From Symbiodinium natans (taxonomy: Eukaryota; Sar; Dinophyceae; Suessiales; Symbiodiniaceae), in contig CAJNDS010002735.1 of the NCBI GenBank assembly GCA_905221605.1, forward strand, positions 235,523 through 299,522: a stretch of 64,000 nt of DNA. The letters run 5' to 3'. The notes below the pieces were generated by a model. It did no database searches. It was not told where the DNA came from and worked only from the letters and a program-made list of their open reading frames with translations. This document shows, in pieces, positions 12,355-53,874 of this stretch. Numbering within the stretch: position 1 is the first letter of the stretch; each line of letters opens with the position of its first letter. A program made the translations under genes and the position numbers.

Positions 12355-14609
12355 ATGGATCCAGACGTTGAAGTCTTGTTGAAGAAGATTGAAGAGTTGA
12401 AGAGGGAGAAGCGGGAAGAGGAGGAGACCAGGGAAAGTAGAATGACACCGAAACTTCTGACACATGCGAGAACTTTGTGCCACAAGTTCATCACACATGA
12501 CTTCTTGCTTGTGATAGGAGAAACGGAAAAGGGCCGAAAAGAGAGTGGAGCAGTCGTTTCAGTTGAAATGCAGCCACGAGGACTGACTTGAGATGATGAG
12601 CGTCCATCAGCAAGACGTGATTCATAGATTAGATAGTGGGGGTCCAAGCCTTGAAGGAGTCTAGTGAGCGAGCCAAGCAGCTCAAGTCCTTGGACGTGTG
12701 TTTCGTGCTGGATTGTACGAACTCGATGCAGCCCTTTATCGAATCGGTCAAGCAGAAGATCGCCGAAATCAACGTGCAGATTGAGATGCTTGGCTGATGT
12801 GAATGGTAGGGGGGTGCTGCCCTAGAGGGCTGTATGCTGACCCGATGGGTTGTGGCACATCAGCGGACGACAAGATTGCAGAATCATTCTTGCAGAATCA
12901 ACTGAGGAAAAGGTTGGGAAGCGGAGCCAATGTGAGGTATGCCATGGTTTGCTATCGAGATTTCGATTGTGCAGAGCATCCCGTGATCCTGCCGTTTGGC
13001 GACGTGCGTGCCTGCCAGCATTTCCTGGAAGGGGTCCGGGCAACCGGTGGTGAGGATTGGCGCTTTGACTAGACAGACCGTTCGTGCAAGTTGCTGTGAC
13101 GTTGTGGCTACAGGTAGGTTGACAGCATGTGCGACAGTGCAAATCTGGGGAGTGCCGAGGTGCGAGGATGTTCTTGCAGGGCTGGAGGCAGCCGTAAACC
13201 TCGATTGGCGAGGTCATGTGCGACTGCTATTTCTCCTGGCGCAGACGCCTAACCACGGTCCGCGTTTTCATGATAAGGCCCGGGGAGCAGGACACCAGGA
13301 AGGTCTTGTCCGAATCTTCAGTTGGGATGATCACTTTGATGTGGACACCGGCAAAGCAGACAGAGTCCTCCTCACTCTTGTCCAGAAGGATATCCACTTC
13401 CATTGCCTCGAGATTTCTGGCTCAACTTCGAAAATGTTTGAAGCCTTCCAGGAAGTCTACAACAACAAGGATGAGGGGCGCGTCATGAAGGTGCACACAA
13501 TGACTTCGGACGCAGAATCGCTGCTGTCAACAATTGTAAAGGCATCTTGGAGCTCAGTGCAGGAGACGTTCACTAGGACATCGGCATCGTGGTCCGTGGT
13601 CACTGGTCAAGAGCAACATCTGCCAGAGTTCAATGTCAGTAAAGTATCCCTTGATCCCAACATCGATTGGGAGAACATGACGGGGTGGCAGAAGTTCCAG
13701 GCCAGACTTGAGTCGGTAGAGGTACAAGATGAGCTTTGCACCAAGTTCCGGACCCACGAGACCAGAACCACGGTCCACATTGCACCAAAGCCATTCAGCC
13801 ACGGCGCCATGCGCGCTGCGTGGGCACTCTATGACGAGAGCATTAATGCAAAGCTCGTCGCGAAAAGATACATGAGACAGGATTCACGGTACAATGCCAT
13901 AGAAGTCCTAGAGGGTGACCTCCGGTCACAAGCTTTGGCTATGAGCCTGGCGGAGAAGTTCAACCGCCGCCGACCTAACGAACCACCGCTGCATTTTGTG
14001 CAGCTGCAGCTGATGCGCATTGATGTTATGGGCAAGGAGAAGCTCATGACGGTGGAGCCCTTCATTCCTGGAGAGTACCGTAAAGAAACCAACAATGCAA
14101 GCTTCGTTCGGGAGGGCTCTGACATAGCACAAGCCTTTAGCCATTTTTCCCATGATGTTACAGGCGGGGCTTGCATGGTGGTGGACATCCAAGGGGTCCG
14201 CGAATCTCTGACGGATCCACAAATCCACAGCAAGCACTCATGTTTCGGTCGCGGCAATCTCGGCACCAAAGGCTTCGATGCCTTCTTCATGGTGCATCAG
14301 TGCAACGAGGTCTGCAGGCACTTGAAGCTCAAGCCAAACCCGATGCAGCTCAGCAGCCTCGCCCACGACTTGATTGGGAGCTTGGAGGCCTGTCCGTGGA
14401 AACTTGGCGCGATTTCAGGTAGACCAATCACGAGACAGAGACATCGTAAAGCATGCTTAACTGTGCGTCGGGGTGGACCTCGGCACTGGTTTTCACACCA
14501 AGCCCTCGAAAGCATCGAGGCCTCTGAAAAAGCAATAATTCAGAAGGTCCGCGCAGCAGAAGGACATGCTCTCGGGCATGTCGGCATGACGACTTCAAGC
14601 AAACGTTAA
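12355..14609 (+). CDS. VWA domain-alpha-kinase (VwkA-like atypical Ser/Thr kinase)
   Basis: Proposed exons are 12,355-12,436, 12,649-12,792, 12,927-13,049 and 13,153 to at most 14,609; their phases agree. The start ATG opens a Lys/Glu-rich helix (M-D-P-D-V-E-V-L-L-K-K-I-E). Exon 2 carries the VWA opening strand and metal site L-D-V-C-F-V-L-D-C-T-N-S-M, with D-x-T-x-S as in alpha-kinase VWA proteins. Exon 3 gives V-R-Y-A-M-V-C-Y-R-D-F. Exon 4 starts C-E-D-V-L-A-G-L-E-A-A, completes the VWA, then enters the alpha-kinase domain at about 13,770 (P-F-S-H-G-A-M-R, then V-A-K). Diagnostic motifs follow: F-S-H-F-S-H-D-V-T-G-G, D-I-Q-G-V, L-T-D-P-Q-I-H-S, F-G-R-G-N-L-G, and zinc-site F-F-M-V-H-Q-C-N-E-V-C. 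The VWA segment A-Q-T-P-N-H-G replaces the usual A-D-A-P-x-H-G. Intron 12,793-12,926 fits GC-AG; the others are GT-AG. The C-terminal end is uncertain because a GGTAGAC donor near 14,419 could splice out the last part. Family call is strong; exact exons are inferred. Confidence 0.85.
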
Positions 14610-23680: not shown

Positions 23681-23802
23681 TGCTCGCAGTGCCAAGGGCT
23701 TTCCGCACTGCATGTCCGGGCGGCCAAAACATCAATTCTATGGAAAGCCGTTTCTCACACGAGTTCGTCGCCAAAAGGGTTGTAACCGGAGCTTTTGGCA
23801 GC

Positions 23803-24672
23803 ATGGCCGACGCCGCGTCGCAGGACTTCATGGGCCGGGTGATCGGCGCCGCTTCCCAAGGTGCCGTGGGCGCCGTGGTTGCCGCGTCCCTGAGCGCGGT
23901 GACGGAGCCTCTTGTGAACAACATGTTGGTGAACCGCGCGACGCTCGGGCAGGCGATCAAGGAGCTGGATCCCAACAAGATCAAGAGCTACCTGAACACC
24001 ACGCTTGCCACCAACTTCATCAAGTTCCCCTTCTTTGAGGCGACCAATATCATCATGCAGGGCGTGGACCTTCCCCCGACAGCACGGGGAGCCGCCTTGG
24101 GGTCGGTCTTCTGCACCATCACCCTGCCGATCACCAACTACCGATTCCGAAAGTCGATGAACCTGCCAGTGACGCCTGGCAACCTCTACCAGGCGTACCC
24201 GCCAACGGTTCTCCGGGACATCATCTACGGCATCGCGCGCAACAAGGTGTCTGCCTTCCTCATCTCCCTGAACCCCACCTTTGCGAACTCTACCATGGGG
24301 CGCGTGGTGAACATGTTCACCACTGTCGTCGCAGCATGCGTGCTGTCGGCTCCCGGCAACGAGCTTCGTGGTTACTGCCTGCAGCCTCCCGACCGCAAGC
24401 AGTCCTTCGCAGACTTCTTCCAGCCCATCAAGTTCATCCGCAGCACCTCCGTCGGTGCCGTGATCATGGGAATCAGCCTGGCGATCGGCAGCCTCGCCAC
24501 GCCGCAGGTGGAGAAGTTCGTGACGAAGCTGAGGGACTACCTCCAGAAGAACCCGGTGAGCTACATCCTGCTCATCCTCTTCTTCGTGCAGCAGATCCTC
24601 CAGATGCGCCGGCAGACAGAGCTCGTGCAGGCCGTGCAGAAGTCAGAGCAGAAGTCCCTGAAAGCCGCATAA
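23803..24672 (+). CDS. Mitochondrial-carrier-like membrane protein, tandem copy 1
   Basis: 289 codons starting M-A-D-A-A-S-Q-D-F. This start is chosen because all three tandem copies share sequence from it and not beyond. The protein is hydrophobic and has a threefold layout. Each third has a Pro-centred motif: T-E-P-L-V-N-N-M, T-L-P-I-T-N-Y-R-F-R-K and S-A-P-G-N-E-L-R-G-Y. The thirds carry G-rich helices and a P-P-T-V-L-R-D-I-I-Y-G-I-A-R-N stretch. Mitochondrial carriers have three repeats with P-x-[DE]-x-x-[KR]; here the acidic residue is lost, so the call is tentative. Length is typical of carriers (about 280-320). The tail K-S-E-Q-K-S-L-K-A-A is unique to this copy. An AG acceptor (TTTTGGCAG) lies directly before CATGG, as expected if mRNA is trans-spliced close to the start. 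Could also be an unrelated multi-pass protein. Confidence 0.85.
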   Translation: MADAASQDFMGRVIGAASQGAVGAVVAASLSAVTEPLVNNMLVNRATLGQAIKELDPNKIKSYLNTTLATNFIKFPFFEATNIIMQGVDLPPTARGAALGSVFCTITLPITNYRFRKSMNLPVTPGNLYQAYPPTVLRDIIYGIARNKVSAFLISLNPTFANSTMGRVVNMFTTVVAACVLSAPGNELRGYCLQPPDRKQSFADFFQPIKFIRSTSVGAVIMGISLAIGSLATPQVEKFVTKLRDYLQKNPVSYILLILFFVQQILQMRRQTELVQAVQKSEQKSLKAA

Positions 24673-25124
24673 GCTCGGCTGGGAGTAGCTTTCTCTTTTC
24701 GCACTTTGCAGGTGGCCTTCGCAACTTGTTACTTGTAGTGAGAGCGGTGCCTTAGCACTTTGCAAGAGCAGTCGCAGAGACTCAGAAGGACGGATGCTAG
24801 TTGCTACTATCATGAAGGCATTCTGTAGATCGCAATACTTTGAGCATCATGTTGAGAGATCACTGCGGGAGTTTCGTTTCCACAATGTCTTCATGCCCAG
24901 AAGGCGAACGGAGTTTGGCCAGCAGGAAGCTGCTGAAACAGCTCCGGAAAAAGAGGTTGCAAGTCGCAGCATCTCCAGCCCCTTGCTGCCTTCGAAGTGG
25001 GCGAACTGTCATGTCACCGATGTCTCTCATCCCGTTGGGTGGATTGCCACGGCACATCCTACTTGCAGCCGTAAGGGTCCTCAAAGAAGTGTCGCCAGCA
25101 TTTAAGAGCCATTCGTTTGGCAGC
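24673..25124. other. Spacer between copies 1 and 2
   Basis: About 450 bases with no detectable similarity to the next spacer or to the sequence upstream of copy 1. An open frame upstream of copy 2 reads in frame into it from 24,840, but nothing comparable precedes the other copies, so it is probably untranslated or an unshared exon. Confidence 0.6.
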
Positions 25125-26009
25125 ATGGCCGACGCCGCGTCGCAGGACTTCATGGGCCGGGTGATCGGCGCCGCTTCCCAAGGTGCCGTGGGCGCCGTGG
25201 TTGCCGCGTCCCTGAGCGCGGTGACGGAGCCTCTGGTGAACAACATGTTGGTGAACCGCGCGACGCTCGGGCAGGCGATCAAGGAGCTGGATCCCAACAA
25301 GATCAAGAGCTACCTGAACACCACGCTTGCCACCAACTTCATCAAGTTCCCCTTCTTTGAGGCGACCAATATCATCATGCAGGGCGTGGACCTTCCCCCG
25401 ACAGCACGGGGAGCCGCCTTGGGGTCGGTCTTCTGCACCATCACCCTGCCGATCACCAACTACCGATTCCGAAAGTCGATGAACCTGCCAGTGACGCCTG
25501 GCAACCTCTACCAGGCGTACCCGCCAACGGTTCTCCGGGACATCATCTACGGCATCGCGCGCAACAAGGTGTCTGCCTTCCTCATCTCCCTGAACCCCAC
25601 CTTTGCGAACTCTACCATGGGGCGCGTGGTGAACATGTTCACCACTGTCGTCGCAGCATGCGTGCTGTCGGCTCCCGGCAACGAGCTTCGTGGTTACTGC
25701 CTGCAGCCTCCCGACCGCAAGCAGTCCTTCGCAGACTTCTTCCAGCCCATCAAGTTCATCCGCAGCACCTCCGTCGGTGCCGTGATCATGGGAATCAGCC
25801 TGGCGATCGGCAGCCTCGCCACGCCGCAGGTGGAGAAGTTCGTGACGAAGCTGAGGGACTACCTCCAGAAGAACCCGGTGAGCTACATCCTGCTCATCCT
25901 CTTCTTCGTGCAGCAGATCCTCCAGATGCGCCGGCAGACAGAGCTCGTGCAGGCCATCGAGGGCCCCCAGAAGTCGGCTATCTCGCCCGATGCCAAGGCG
26001 AAGGCCTAG
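25125..26009 (+). CDS. Mitochondrial-carrier-like membrane protein, tandem copy 2
   Basis: 294 codons. Compared by eye with copy 1, the only coding difference before the tail is a silent change at 25,235 (CTG against CTT at 23,913). The C-terminal tail differs completely (A-I-E-G-P-Q-K-S-A-I-S-P-D-A-K-A-K-A). Identity stops abruptly just after the codons for L-V-Q-A. Upstream, TTTGGCAGCATGG is shared with copy 1 and then similarity is lost. All three copies should have the same transport or membrane role; the variable tail faces outward from the last helix and might tune targeting or turnover, which is speculation. Confidence 0.85.
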   Translation: MADAASQDFMGRVIGAASQGAVGAVVAASLSAVTEPLVNNMLVNRATLGQAIKELDPNKIKSYLNTTLATNFIKFPFFEATNIIMQGVDLPPTARGAALGSVFCTITLPITNYRFRKSMNLPVTPGNLYQAYPPTVLRDIIYGIARNKVSAFLISLNPTFANSTMGRVVNMFTTVVAACVLSAPGNELRGYCLQPPDRKQSFADFFQPIKFIRSTSVGAVIMGISLAIGSLATPQVEKFVTKLRDYLQKNPVSYILLILFFVQQILQMRRQTELVQAIEGPQKSAISPDAKAKA

Positions 26010-26421
26010 GCATGGCGACCTTTTGTGTTACTTTTGCCTCAGGCATCTTCAGGTCTGACTCGGTCTGACCTGTTTCCCCCGTGTTGTTTCGAAGTTTCAC
26101 ATCTGGAGACTGGACTGCAGCTCTTGCTGCTGAAACGGCTCCTGGGAAGAAAGGAGCTCAGAACTTGGTCATGGTACCCTGTCGCCGCCAAAGCCTTCCA
26201 TCTCCCCAGTAGCTCACAAGCTCTCAGCAGCTGCGTGCTCCATGATGGTCGATGACTAAATCGTCACCCAGAAATATCTGGATAGCTGCTTACACCATGG
26301 CAACACTTCGTGTCCAGAGTTTGTGAAATTGAATGGAGTACACATGGCTTCCGTAGCTTTTGTTCAGTTCACCTGGGCCCAGACATTGACCCGACTCGCT
26401 TTCTTCGCGTGATTAGGAAGC
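26010..26421. other. Spacer between copies 2 and 3
   Basis: About 410 bases unlike the first spacer. Contains CCGTAGCTTTTG at 26,351-26,362, which resembles the dinoflagellate spliced leader with two bases missing. The splice acceptor before copy 3 appears to be ATTAGGAAG directly upstream of CATGG. Confidence 0.5.
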
Positions 26422-27276
26422 ATGGCCGACGCCGCGTCGCAGGACTTCATGGGCCGGGTGATCGGCGCCGCTTCCCAAGGTGCCGTGGGCGCCGTGGTTG
26501 CCGCGTCCCTGAGCGCGGTGACGGAGCCTCTGGTGAACAACATGTTGGTGAACCGCGCGACGCTCGGGCAGGCGATCAAGGAGCTGGATCCCAACAAGAT
26601 CAAGAGCTACCTGAACACCACGCTTGCCACCAACTTCATCAAGTTCCCCTTCTTTGAGGCGACCAATATCATCATGCAGGGCGTGGACCTTCCCCCGACA
26701 GCACGGGGAGCCGCCTTGGGGTCGGTCTTCTGCACCATCACCCTGCCGATCACCAACTACCGATTCCGAAAGTCGATGAACCTGCCAGTGACGCCTGGCA
26801 ACCTCTACCAGGCGTACCCGCCAACGGTTCTCCGGGACATCATCTACGGCATCGCGCGCAACAAGGTGTCTGCCTTCCTCATCTCCCTGAACCCCACCTT
26901 TGCGAACTCTACCATGGGGCGCGTGGTGAACATGTTCACCACTGTCGTCGCAGCATGCGTGCTGTCGGCTCCCGGCAACGAGCTTCGTGGTTACTGCCTG
27001 CAGCCTCCCGACCGCAAGCAGTCCTTCGCAGACTTCTTCCAGCCCATCAAGTTCATCCGCAGCACCTCCGTCGGTGCCGTGATCATGGGAATCAGCCTGG
27101 CGATCGGCAGCCTCGCCACGCCGCAGGTGGAGAAGTTCGTGACGAAGCTGAGGGACTACCTCCAGAAGAACCCGGTGAGCTACATCCTGCTCATCCTCTT
27201 CTTCGTGCAGCAGATCCTCCAGATGCGCCGGCAGACAGAGCTCGTGCAGGCCGTGCAGAATGGCAGCACCAAGTGA
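26422..27276 (+). CDS. Mitochondrial-carrier-like membrane protein, tandem copy 3
   Basis: 284 codons, shortest of the three. The body matches copies 1 and 2 at the DNA level as far as I can read, sharing CTG at 26,532 with copy 2. The tail is only V-Q-N-G-S-T-K. The sequence just upstream (GTGATTAGGAAG) is not related to that of the other copies, so the shared block begins at GCATGG. The 3' flank is also unrelated. The array appears to end here: no fourth copy is found in the next several kb. Confidence 0.85.
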   Translation: MADAASQDFMGRVIGAASQGAVGAVVAASLSAVTEPLVNNMLVNRATLGQAIKELDPNKIKSYLNTTLATNFIKFPFFEATNIIMQGVDLPPTARGAALGSVFCTITLPITNYRFRKSMNLPVTPGNLYQAYPPTVLRDIIYGIARNKVSAFLISLNPTFANSTMGRVVNMFTTVVAACVLSAPGNELRGYCLQPPDRKQSFADFFQPIKFIRSTSVGAVIMGISLAIGSLATPQVEKFVTKLRDYLQKNPVSYILLILFFVQQILQMRRQTELVQAVQNGSTK

Positions 27277-28507
27277 GCCAGGTGCCAGGGCTTCACTTTT
27301 GCTTTTCGCTTGCCATCCTTGTCAGCTGTTTGTACACACGTGTTCCGATTTGCTGAGTCTGCCAATCCGTGCAGCCACCTGTGCACTCAGGAGATCGATG
27401 CCCCTTCTTCACGCTCAGTGACCTAGTTCCTGGACGTGTGGATTCAATAGCCGTTCCAAAAAAAAAAGAACTTGTTTAACGTTCCCAAGTCTGGCTGACT
27501 CGGTCTGGCAAGCCCAGCAGGGACATGTTCAAGCGCAGTGCTGCATGTCGCCATCTAATCGATCAGCCCATTTGGAGTGTTGGCCGGCAGGTTGAGATGC
27601 TGCTGAAACGCCTCCGGGTGGGAAAAGACCTGTGCAGTTCTTTGCTGAAGTAGTCGAAGTTGATGACTCTCGGTCAATGAGCTCAACACTGAACACAGCG
27701 TTGTATGCAGACTCCTCAAGTCATGGCCCTTATCGGCTGGGTCTTCCAATCTGGAAGCCCATCAGTTACTTGCATCCGACGGATGCATACCATTTCAGAC
27801 CGTAGTCCTGAACGACGTCAACGTGTGCCAGTGGGCACCCCGAAGCCTTTCACTTCACCCGGCACAGCCCGGCACTCCTGCTCGTACACAGAAGCCCCAA
27901 TGCTTCTGACTTTCGGAGCCTGGCATGGCGGCGCCCGCGATGCCGGCGAAGACTTCGGAGCCTGGCTTGGGCTCGAGGACGGTCGTGCATGCGGTGTGAT
28001 CAGCTTTTACGAAGAAACGGGCAATTCGAGACCTGTCCCCTGTAGTCAACACAGCTTACAGCTTGTGGAGCATGCTTTTGTAGCATCGAGCAGCAGGCCG
28101 CGGGCACAGCAGCCTCGGAGACTCCGGCGGTCGTTGGGCTTGCCCCGAACCTTCTTGGCCGAGGCAGCTAGACATAGTGCAGGAACTCGGCCTGGTGAGC
28201 TTGTCAGACTTCTCTGCGCCGCTTCTTGCAAGATGCAGCTGAAGGCCTCAGTGCTGGGGCTTCAGGGCCTGGCCTTACGTCGCTTCCTCCGCGCCTCCCA
28301 GCGTCGCCCGCGGCGGAGCCGCTTTGGCCATCTCAAACCCATTTTTCATGCTCGTAGGGCTGTCGAGTCTGTCGATTCCGTCGACATCTGTAGGGTTGGA
28401 CGGGGGCAGCGTCGGCATTCCCCATGGGCATCGCAGAAGCTAAGGTTTCCGCATCAACGGCTGCCGTTTCGATCGCACGAATGGCCAGGCGAAACAAGTA
28501 GCTGCGC
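27277..28507. other. Between carrier array and methyltransferase gene; no confident gene
   Basis: A + strand frame at about 27,740-27,890 (H-Q-L-L-A-S-D-G-C-I-P-F-Q-T-V-V-L-N-D-V) could be an exon, possibly 5' part of the downstream methyltransferase, but is not recognised. GC-rich frames at 27,900-28,500 overlap on both strands and are not informative. Confidence 0.3.
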
Positions 28508-43534: not shown

Positions 43535-45208
43535 CCGTGAGAAAGCAGCATTCGTCCCTGTCCCGCCAAGCCGAGTGGCTTCGGCTGCCGTGTTAAATGG
43601 AAGTCTTCAGTTTGTATTCTCTGAGTAAGGGTCGCGCATGTTGTGCTGGCGAATGGGCATGTGGTAGCTTTTCGGCAAGTGTTGCTTTCGCCGATGCGCT
43701 GACTTCACGATGAAGAAACAACATCCGTCCCAGCCAAGCCGAGTGGCTTCGGCTGCCGTGACGAATGGAAGTCTTCAGTTTGTATTCTCTGAGCAAGGGT
43801 CGCGCATGTTGTGCTGGCGAATGGGCATGTGGTAGCTTTTCGGCAAGTGTTGCTTTCGCCGATGCGCTGACTTCACAATGAAGAAACAACATCCGTCCCA
43901 GCCAAGCCGAGTGGCTTCGGCTGCCGTGACGAATGGAAGTCTTCAGTTTGTATTCTCTGAGCAAGGGTCGCGCATGTTGTGCTAGCGAATGGGCATGTGG
44001 CAGTTTTTCGGCAAGTGTTGCTTTCGCCGATGCGCCGACGTCACGATGAAGAAACAACATCCGTCCCAGCCAAGCCGAGTGGCTTCGGCTGCCGTGATGA
44101 ATGGAAGTCTTCAGTTTGTATTCTCTGAGCAAGGGTCGCGCATGTTGTGCTGGCGAATGGGCATGTGGTAGCTTTTCGGCAAGTGTTGCTTTCGCCGATG
44201 CGCTGACTTCACGATGAAGAAACAACATCCGTCCCAGCCAAGCCGAGTGGCTTCGGCTGCCGTGATGAATGGAAGTCTTCAGTTTGTATTCTCTGAGCAA
44301 GGGTCGCGTATGTTGTGCTGGCGAATGGGCATGTGGTAGCTTTTCGGCAAGTGTTGCTTTCGCCGATGCGCTGACTTCACGATGAAGAAACAACATCCGT
44401 CCCAGCCAAGCCGAGTGGCTTCGGCTGCCGTGATGAATGGAAGTCTTCAGTTTGTATTCTCTGAGCAAGGGTCGCGCATGTTGTGCTGGCGAATGGGCAT
44501 GTGGTAGCTTTTCGGCAAGTGTTGCTTTCGCCGATGCGCTGACTTCACGATGAAGAAACAACATCCGTCCCAGCCAAGCCGAGTGGCTTCGGCTGCCGTG
44601 ACGAATGGAAGTCTTCAGTTTGTGTTCTCTGAGCAAGGGTCGCGCATGTTGTGCTGGAGAATGGGCATGTGGTAGCTTTTCGGCAAGTGTTGCTTTCGCC
44701 GATGCGCTGACTTCACGATGAAGAAACAACATCCGTCCCAGCCAAGCCGAGTGGCTTCGGCTGCCGTGACGAATGGAAGTCTTCAGTTTGTATTCTCTGA
44801 GGAAGGGTCGCGCATGTTGTGCTGGCGAATGGGCATGTGGTAGCTTTTCGGCAAGTGTTGCTTTCGCCGATGCGCCGACGTCACGATGAAGAAACAACAT
44901 CCGTCCCAGCCAAGCCGAGTGGCTTCGGCTGCCGTGACGAATGGAAGTCTTCAGTTTGTATTCTCTGAGCAAGGGTCGCGCATGTTGTGCTGGCGAATGG
45001 GCATGTGGTAGCTTTTCGGCAAGTGTTGCTTTCGCCGATGCGCTGACTTCACGATGAAGAAACAACATCCGTCCCAGCCAAGCCGAGTGGCTTCGGCTGC
45101 CGTGACGAATGGAAGTCTTCAGGTTGCATTCTGTGAATATGGTTCGCGCATGAAGTGCCGGCGAATGGGTATGTGGTAACGATTCGGCCAGTGTCGCTTT
45201 CGCTGGTC
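43535..45208. repeat. 168-bp satellite, about ten copies
   Basis: The landmark GTGGCTTCGGCTGCCGTG recurs ten times at ~168-bp spacing. Inner copies differ at only a few positions each; the first (from about 43,535) and last (to about 45,208) are more diverged, typical of unequal exchange. Because 168 is 3 x 56, one minus-strand frame stays open for 491 codons (43,593-45,068) with a 56-residue unit starting M-L-F-L-H-R-E-V-S-A-S-A-K. The frame has no known domain and opposes all recognised genes, so I treat it as a satellite, not a CDS. Variants between copies include CGCTGACTTC/CGCCGACGTC and TGATGAA/TGACGAA. Confidence 0.95.
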
Positions 45209-52000: not shown

Positions 52001-53015
52001 TGAAGGATTTCATGTCCTTTAGAATCTTTAAAATATTTGCGTGCTCTGAGAGTGCTCTCTTTGAAGATTTCTCGGCCCCCGATGCTGGGGGTCAACTTCC
52101 CATGCCCCCCATGCCCCCGAGGCCCCCAAAGCCTGCGCCAGCGCGGCCCTCGCCCCCGGCACCGGTGACCGGCTAAGCTTTCACTTCAAGTTAGTAGATA
52201 AGAAATCATAATATGTGTATAGGGAGGCAACGTCGTACTTTAAGACAATATGTAGGGAACACTCCAGGCTGCCAGTCACTTCGACCTGGCGCTGAAGGCA
52301 CGGAGTGTTTTCATCAGACCTTTGTCTTCCTCTGCTGCAACCAAGAGTGATATTTTCCTTCATGTGCCTTGGACGGGCTGACTTGATATCCACGCTAGTG
52401 CTTGCTGCATGGCGGCTGCTTTGCCTCGCCTTTTCTGTTACTTCACCCTGTCCATGTGGTATACGCATTCACAGTTCAGGTCAAGGGCCACTCGTATGCC
52501 GACATCAAGGACGCATGTCCGGCTTATCCTGGTAGGAACGCCGACTCCGCATAGGAAGCTGAAGCCTTTCAATCGATGGCCTCATGGCTTCTCAGGAATT
52601 TGAGGATGTCGTGCACGCTGGGAGCTCAGGTAAGCTGTGCGGGGTGCCTTTGGCGCCAGTGCCGTGTGGAACAGGAGCAGATCGTGACTGGCTTGCGACT
52701 GCAGCCTGACGACGTCAGCTTGGACATTATCAAGGTACATGTCCGGTGATCTTGCAACTACTTGCATGGTTGCAAGACAGTGGTCAGTTCTGGGAGGTGA
52801 TCGACGGTCGTCGACTGCAAGAGGGTCAGTATGAGGCCTTGACACTCGCTTGTTGCTTGTTGTGTTTGTGCATGTGCTTAAGACCTTCCTTAGCCAGGTA
52901 ATGTTGCACTTCAAGCACGCCACCCCAGAAAAGGACGGAGATGGAAAGAGCAGGCAGTGTAAACCATAGTGTGCGGCAAGTGCCACAAGTTCTAGGGCAG
53001 AAAGAAGGGAACATG
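48720..53015. other. No confident gene
   Basis: A GGGGATGTTT-type short tandem repeat lies at about 51,177-51,232. A Pro-rich frame ends at 52,176 (P-M-P-P-M-P-P-R-P-P-K-P-A). A frame at 50,497-50,793 (+) is coding-like but unrecognised. Everything else is unassigned. Confidence 0.4.
51177..51232 (+). repeat. ~11-bp GGGGATGTTT tandem repeat
   Basis: Five successive units of GGGGATGTTT with 0-2 extra bases each. Weakly reminiscent of TTTAGGG, and the last unit actually reads TTTAGGGA. Confidence 0.75.
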
Positions 53016-53017
53016 TA

Positions 53018-53874
53018 GGGAGAGCCTGCCCACGCAGCGAGGAGCGCCAGATCCGACAGTATCTGCATGAACACGGGGAGATGCTTTCCCTGCTCGGCGC
53101 AGAGCTGGAAGAGGTGCGCCGGACAGCAGCAATGACTGAACAGATGGCTGCAGATGTCTGCAGAGCCGCTTTTGATGCCCAGGCTTCGGCGACTGCCAGG
53201 CGCGCGCTCTTCTCGGATTACTGCTGCACGCACAAGATAAGTATCGGGTCGTTTGCTGCGCTCGTGCTTCGCTCGTGCTTCGCTCGTGCTTCGCTCGTGC
53301 TTCGCTCGTGCTTCGCTCGTGCTTCGCTCGTGCTTCGCTCGTGCTTCGCTCGTGCTTCGCGCGTGCTTCGCTCGTGCTTCGCTCGTGCTTCGCTCGTGCT
53401 TCGCTCGTGCTTCGCTCGTGCTTCGCTCGTGCTTCGCTCGTGCTTCGCTCGTGCTTCGCTCGTGCTTCGCTCGTGCTTCGCTCGTGCTTCGCTCGTGCTT
53501 CGCTCGTGCTTCGCTCGCCGGCGCAGTCTAGCCCCAGCTGCCAAAGCAAAGAAGCTGCTCCTTGTCAGGACGACGCACCCTGGGACGTCAACGCTGCGAC
53601 CGCAGATGCCAACACGTATGCCCTCGCACACAACTCTGCCCAGTATGCACCGACCAACGCCACCACCACCCAGACACAGTCAAACAACATCACGGACGCA
53701 GCCAGAGCATCATCAGCCTACCACCGTTCCATCAACACAGTCGACGCTGACTACCTTGGCGTCAACCATGCCCACGACGACAACACTGAAACCTGCAACT
53801 GCACCGCACGCACCGCACTAAGTTCAATGCAGCGGTTGACATTGTACGCAGCAGTCGTAGCTCATCGCTGTTAA
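53018..53874 (+). CDS. Possible exon with coiled coil, 11-bp repeat and Thr-rich tail
   Basis: The frame open from 53,018 begins with a credible helical region rich in Glu, Gln and Ala (E-E-R-Q-I-R-Q-Y-L-H-E-H-G-E-M-L-S-L-L-G, then E-L-E-E-V-R-R-T-A-A-M-T-E-Q-M). It runs to about 53,240, where an intron or the repeat begins. If translated through, the 11-bp repeat adds the unit V-L-R-S-C-F-A-R-A-S-L, then a Thr/Pro-rich mucin-like tail to 53,821 in this frame. Other frames through the repeat end at 53,531 and 53,874. No family recognised. The helical part may be a true exon; whether the repeat is translated is unknown. Confidence 0.35.
53259..53511. repeat. 23-copy 11-bp repeat CGCTCGTGCTT
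   Basis: Exactly 23 consecutive 11-mers, 22 identical and one (about 53,358) reading CGCGCGTGCTT. Because 11 is not a multiple of 3, each reading frame cycles through the same peptide: 11 residues on the + strand in all three frames (V-L-R-S-C-F-A-R-A-S-L) and 11 on the minus strand (K-H-E-R-S-T-S-E-A-R-A), with no stop in any. Confidence 0.97.

Follow-up and report, generated by a model that had tools for sequence, protein, structure and literature searches.

The 64,000-nucleotide stretch of Symbiodinium natans DNA analysed here (the window), which forms the end of contig C2423 and holds no N bases, contains a tandem array of three same-strand, single-exon genes within 3.5 kb, as given by its listing of open reading frames. 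The three copies are nearly identical across their coding core, silent sites included, while their spacers are no more alike than shuffled sequence. The best explanation, and in our judgement a highly probable one, is that a whole unit was duplicated in tandem, that its flanks and C-terminal tails eroded, and that gene conversion has kept the constrained coding core uniform.

A sequence-only reading of the window had described three tandem copies that are almost identical in the coding region and vary at a single silent site, and pairwise comparison bore out both statements. Copies 1 and 2 share a tract of 840 nt with one difference, copies 1 and 3 a tract of 842 nt with one difference at the same site, and copies 2 and 3 a tract of 834 nt with none (Table 1). 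Third codon positions differ at 1 of 277 in both comparisons that involve copy 1 and at 0 of 277 between copies 2 and 3; first and second positions do not differ at all. The edges of the identity needed some correction. At the 5' end, placed at GCATGG by the sequence-only reading, identity begins at AGCATGG when all three copies are compared; copies 1 and 2 already agree from TTTGGCAGCATGG, six nucleotides upstream of the three-way start (AGC-ATG). At the 3' end, the proposed limit after the codons for L-V-Q-A is right for the pairs with copy 2, but copies 1 and 3 stay identical for 8 bases more.

Table 1. Positions of the array genes, their identity tracts and associated elements (numbering of the window)
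Feature	Position	Strand	Description
Gene copy 1	23803..24672	+	single exon, 289 aa, stop TAA
Gene copy 2	25125..26009	+	single exon, 294 aa, stop TAG
Gene copy 3	26422..27276	+	single exon, 284 aa, stop TGA
Identity tract, copy 1	23794..24641	+	23794-24633 against copy 2; 23800-24641 against copy 3
Identity tract, copy 2	25116..25955	+	25116-25955 against copy 1; 25122-25955 against copy 3
Identity tract, copy 3	26419..27260	+	26419-27260 against copy 1; 26419-27252 against copy 2
Sole variable site in the tracts	23913	+	silent; CTT in copy 1, CTG in copies 2 (25235) and 3 (26532)
Divergent C-terminal tail, copy 1	24634..24669	+	VQKSEQKSLKAA, 12 codons after L-V-Q-A
Divergent C-terminal tail, copy 2	25956..26006	+	IEGPQKSAISPDAKAKA, 17 codons after L-V-Q-A
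Divergent C-terminal tail, copy 3	27253..27273	+	VQNGSTK, 7 codons after L-V-Q-A
Block common to 3' flanks, spacer 1	24928..24947	+	256 nt after the stop; core GCTGCTGAAACNNCTCC
Block common to 3' flanks, spacer 2	26125..26144	+	116 nt after the stop of copy 2
Block common to 3' flanks, downstream of copy 3	27598..27617	+	322 nt after the stop
13-mer CTGACTCGGTCTG	26055..26067	+	same order as 27495-27507; BLAST E 0.019
Spliced-leader-like CCGGAGC--TTTTGGC	23786..23799	+	directly before AGC-ATG of copy 1; possible retroposition relict
Spliced-leader-like AGCCATtcgTTTGGC	25107..25121	+	directly before AGC-ATG of copy 2
Spliced-leader-like CCGTAGC--TTTTG	26351..26362	+	weak; about 60-71 nt before the ATG of copy 3

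About 206 synonymous sites fall within the coding core, none or one of which differs between any two copies. Codon usage is biased, with a GC content at third codon positions (GC3) of 0.877 and an effective codon number of about 38, which would favour the reading that purifying selection and codon preference by themselves, with no exchange between the copies, keep the coding sequences alike. However, independent draws from the gene's own codon usage predict about 112 differing codons out of 277, as against the 0 or 1 observed. These figures refute codon bias as the sole cause unless the silent sites are under a second, almost total constraint, and we give this explanation practically no credence. 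In global alignment, the two spacers show 39.7% identity, as compared with a mean of 41.9% and a maximum of 45.8% in 30 shuffles. Global alignments of the 3' regions, dominated by end gaps, were set aside, as were two control comparisons of a spacer with itself. With the synonymous sites near-invariant and the spacers at the level of shuffled sequence, the coding parts must therefore have been homogenised recently and the spacers not.

The sequence-only reading had regarded everything outside the coding region as unalignable, which holds for the spacers as a whole but not for a 20-base block that recurs in all three 3' flanks. Sixteen of its columns are identical three ways, a number reached by 0 of 200 sets of dinucleotide shuffles (null maximum 12), and pairwise BLAST comparisons gave E values of 1.4e-4, 4.4e-4 and 0.002. 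Its core, GCTGCTGAAACNNCTCC, has nine matches in the 759.4-Mb genome searched (2543 contigs), three of them in the array flanks, and a reversed control pattern has eight; with the pattern taken from the flanks themselves, this count serves only to rule out a dispersed repeat as the origin of the block, its significance being given by the shuffle test. The 13-mer CTGACTCGGTCTG, found after copies 2 and 3, may be a second, weaker trace of shared spacer ancestry. Because the rare block is common to all three 3' flanks, these flanks probably descend from one duplicated unit. The premise that tandem duplication carries flanking DNA along thus appears to apply here, the flanks seemingly having been carried and then having decayed. 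The block is followed by runs of A (AAAAAG, AAAG and AAAAG in the three flanks). Since AAAAG/C has been given as the form of dinoflagellate poly-A sites (PMC2488372), the block may sit near the 3' ends of the messages. Separately, a run of ten A followed by G at 27458-27468, 181 bases past the stop of copy 3, is a possible poly-A site or trace of retroposition.

The probable common descent of the flanks argues against recent insertion of a cassette holding only coding sequence into different 3' contexts, an alternative raised by the sequence-only reading, and equally against one mRNA having been retroposed locally three separate times at unrelated sites. The array copies are intronless while the match to a paralog is split into several exon-like pieces, spliced-leader-like stretches precede copies 1 and 2 (both considered below), and a review notes a tendency of dinoflagellate retrogenes to settle close to their parents (PMC6050394), all of which would suit such an origin. 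However, retroposed copies would be expected to share their tail codons and 3' untranslated region (UTR), and a whole-genome search with spacers 1 and 2 found no second place for either at its sensitivity. Together with the genome-rare block, these findings leave insertion of either kind highly improbable.

The same single-place spacers, in a window free of N, also bear on whether the pattern could be an artefact, either because differing copies were made identical by short-read correction or because the array was mis-assembled. The S. natans CCMP2548 assembly is a hybrid of short and long reads (PMC8045281), which is relevant if the source is that strain. Nevertheless, one silent difference, edges specific to each pair and three distinct tails with their own stops have persisted in the assembled sequence, and we regard an artefact as unlikely.

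Based on these results, we suggest the following course of events for duplication followed by gene conversion. Three units would have been duplicated together with their flanks in the dinoflagellate nuclear genome, in an array that looks old judged by its spacers. The flanks and the C-terminal tail codons, weakly constrained, would have drifted past alignment except for the block 116-322 nt after the stops, while purifying selection would have kept the protein core similar. This similarity would permit the copies to pair and to undergo inter-copy conversion, erasing silent differences too. Since eroded tails and flanks cannot pair, the conversion edges would fall where homology stops, that is, close to the AG that precedes the start codon and, at the other end, a few codons short of the stops. 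The proposal that conversion is confined to one exon is thereby retained in part: conversion is the best explanation, but the gene consists of a single exon, so that its limits are those of the conserved coding portion. That the homogenising process was conversion rather than another one, and when it acted, we infer from this pattern.

The proteins differ only in their ends. A last hydrophobic stretch, NPVSYILLILFFVQQILQM, precedes the three differing tails, each of which continues in frame up to its own stop codon, so that separate tail exons would not be required. Four hydrophobic regions with modest peaks (1.42-1.67) suggest a membrane protein, to which we assign no family. Pfam gave no family above the cut-off for the three copies, the sub-threshold matches being DUF443 (E 0.017) for copy 1 and WDR72 (E 0.27) for copy 2, with none for copy 3. 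A sequence search of the PDB yielded no significant relative (the two best matches, at E 0.88 and 0.61, are not carriers), three stretches in viral contigs fitted a pattern but none is a relative, and a search for RNA families returned none over threshold. A single-sequence AlphaFold2 model had a mean pLDDT of 41, too poor for fold comparison. The mitochondrial carrier family was considered on account of stretches resembling the motif P-x(4)-R, and was rejected as unsupported by Pfam, the PDB sequence search and a repeat test. No carrier family was matched in Pfam by the three copies or three paralog pieces at a limit of E 10, at which the HMMER filters drop most matches above about 0.1, and three homologous repeats, looked for as a carrier feature, were not supported, with 62, 135 and 259 of 1000 shuffles matching or exceeding the pairwise scores.

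A whole-genome protein search returned six matches, namely the three array genes and three stretches of divergent paralogs (38-53% identity) at two loci. At the locus on contig C2053, the paralog matches in several separate pieces in different frames with intervening sequence, and it therefore appears to carry introns. An intron-like interval of a divergent paralog (locus L008, minus strand, from about 5315 down to 4100) has CAGGCC at both ends, and identical intron ends of this kind have been described for some dinoflagellate introns (PMC2488372). Spliced-leader-like stretches lie directly before AGC-ATG in copies 1 and 2. Their scores are reached by fractions of 0.0068 and 0.026 of random 40-base windows, compared with 0.958, that is chance, directly before the ATG of copy 3, whose weak match lies about 70 bases upstream; within the window, the score of copy 2 is matched by none of the other 61 GC-ATGG sites. 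Of 20000 random pairs with identical last six bases, 1 attained the joint score of copies 1 and 2, and 497 of 20000 did so once the shared TTTGGC is granted; for these values only the first 16 bases of the leader were used, a cut made when the alignments had already been inspected, and the relict is degenerate with limits set post hoc. A retrogene founder, derived from a trans-spliced message, is plausible on this basis, although intron gain in the C2053 paralog could instead account for the contrast in gene structure. Spliced-leader ends within the window, with nine matches at up to two mismatches, are no more frequent than expected by chance (8.5). In the whole genome, 21 bases of the dinoflagellate spliced leader occur in 205 exact copies and a reversed control in none, which identifies the host as a dinoflagellate; 244 putative spliced-leader sequences have been reported for S. 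natans CCMP2548.

We compared the array with other tandem families of the same genome. The peridinin-protein (PCP) family gave 125 matches, from which 11 array stretches were taken and spacers measured in nine (L029 and L038 were left out, and a separate stretch, L039, also went unused); the rhodopsin family gave 20 matches, and two arrays were measured. Both were chosen as known array formers and not as a random sample of gene families. Among PCP interior-spacer pairs, 18 of 20 are at least 96.5% identical, the other two (74.9% and 90.7%) both belonging to array L033; seven of eight rhodopsin pairs are at least 97.3% identical, and the eighth 73.3%. Thus, 25 of 28 spacer pairs are at least 96.5% alike, and none is as low as the pair in the array studied here. 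L033 (contig C1789, about 450-457 kb) is a milder version of the pattern: third positions differ at 9 of 816 sites (about 1%), the stretch between exons at 93 of 1004 (9%), and the spacers are 75-91% alike. A seven-copy rhodopsin array on contig C2053 (L040 and L041, about 177.9-189.8 kb) has one type of N-terminal extension in copies 1-5 and another in copies 6-7, in sense order. Copies 5 and 6 have a core of about 830 bases with four differences and unlike N-termini, so an edge of similarity lies inside the rhodopsin coding sequence (the pair of copies 4 and 5 was left out of the core comparison). L033 and rhodopsin copies 5 and 6 are intermediate or partial stages in the same genome.

These arrays also bear on the template of homogenisation, which might have been complementary DNA (cDNA) of a trans-spliced mRNA instead of a neighbouring DNA copy. 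Three-way identity starts at AGC-ATG, a possible trans-splice acceptor site; the genes are intronless, and the spliced-leader-like stretches suggest passage through mRNA; moreover, in L033 matching exons flank a diverged inter-exon stretch. However, copies 1 and 2 are identical for 6 bases upstream of the AG. In addition, the nine PCP arrays are split: divergence of the inter-exon stretch exceeds that of third positions in six of them and falls below it in three, which argues against a general exon effect. This stretch is taken to be an intron from the coordinates of two domain matches, and in eight of the nine arrays it contains stops in the frame of the first domain. Among actin genes (89 matches, 10 unit pairs profiled), in 6 of 10 pairs the likeness extends through most of the unit including its non-coding parts, as DNA exchange or recent duplication predicts; the other four, all on contig C1557, are broken up or dissimilar for long stretches, for which reason actin pairs were excluded from the count of 28. 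A cDNA template therefore seems to us very unlikely here. A more general version for this dinoflagellate, in which reverse-transcribed, trans-spliced mRNA is the template, nothing but the mature-message part is copied and tandem genes are thereby kept identical, has an equally slender claim, if not a slighter one. Were it true, the three-way tract would start at the trans-splice acceptor and skip introns and flanks, while the tail, 3' UTR and control region would stay particular to each copy.

Several points weigh against duplication with subsequent conversion as we propose it. The 400 bases upstream of the copies say little about common descent: their alignment scores were reached by 470 of 500 shuffles for copies 1 and 2, which is below chance, and by 27 of 500 for copies 1 and 3, which is borderline, and the match between copies 2 and 3 (0 of 500) lies in stretches that hold the spacer block. 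The block itself could have been retained by function instead of being a neutral remnant. Total spacer decay is unusual within this genome, making the array an extreme. Three sequences with one variable site are too few for a formal test of conversion, and the likeness between copies is judged within a single genome. Finally, short-read correction of near-identical copies could erase real differences.

Concerted evolution confined to coding sequence is already known from the amylase genes of Drosophila and the tubulin genes of Leishmania (PMC1533823 for the latter). Linked paralogs, silent homogenisation beyond codon bias and independently diverging flanks, which we examined as features of conversion of the Drosophila Amy type, were all found in the array. 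It resembles Amy in its linked duplicates with homogenised coding sequence and independently evolving flanks; unlike Amy, which is palindromic and documented by comparison between species, it consists of direct repeats with a near-total contrast in one species. In Leishmania, likewise a trans-splicing protist, beta-tubulin coding sequence is conserved and evolves in concert while non-coding sequence is distinctive for each locus, but the loci lie on three chromosomes (PMC1533823). The Trypanosoma brucei array Tb61, again from a trans-splicing protist, has UTRs of three unrelated types, yet arrays of that species typically show more variation in coding sequence, histone arrays being the sole exception named (PMC1855330).

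Among dinoflagellates, tandem blocks of same-strand, intronless or intron-poor genes, often with short spacers, have been described (PMC7245778, PMC10522408, PMC2488372), and the array shares with them the dinoflagellate host and the same-strand intronless copies. Within the actin clusters of Amphidinium, by contrast, both spacers and introns are conserved (PMC2488372), whereas the spacers here differ. Dinoflagellate retrogenes (PMC6050394, PMC12014239) are comparable in being intronless and in the degenerate spliced-leader-like stretch upstream of copies 1 and 2, but here the relict is degenerate, has limits set after inspection and is known from genomic DNA alone. A review of dinoflagellate genomes names gene conversion among the likely causes of tandem arrays (PMC11453091). 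Among the top-ranked titles and abstract openings of a partial literature, we found no report of coding-confined homogenisation in a dinoflagellate array, and we claim no absence. The array is a clean, rather extreme case of a known process and no new kind of system.

Elsewhere, the window holds several repeats and open frames. The repeat at 873-2651 consists of 5.3 copies of a 336-base unit (95% identity), and every one of its six frames contains stops. An open frame of 540 codons at 12987-14606 carries an alpha-kinase domain (Pfam PF02816, E 6e-45). At 43560-45203, a 168-base unit recurs 9.8 times (96% alike) and is spanned by a predicted minus-strand frame (43596-45206) that stays open for 537 aa as a 56-aa repeat. 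The 11-base unit TGCTTCGCTCG is repeated 24 times at 53254-53517 (98%), within a frame (52970-53818) with a sub-threshold match to MPAB_Lcp_cat (E 0.0018).

The array yields three products with one core and different C-terminal tails and 3' flanks; for copies of this kind in trypanosomatids, a link has been drawn between differing 3' UTRs and differing regulation (PMC1855330). Its units look old by their spacers yet young in the coding region. For eight isolates of this group, silent divergence inside tandem blocks has been calculated as a means of judging selection (PMC10522408), and by that measure alone an array of the present kind would seem recent. Comparing spacer with silent divergence tells recent duplication from homogenisation, and could be applied genome-wide.

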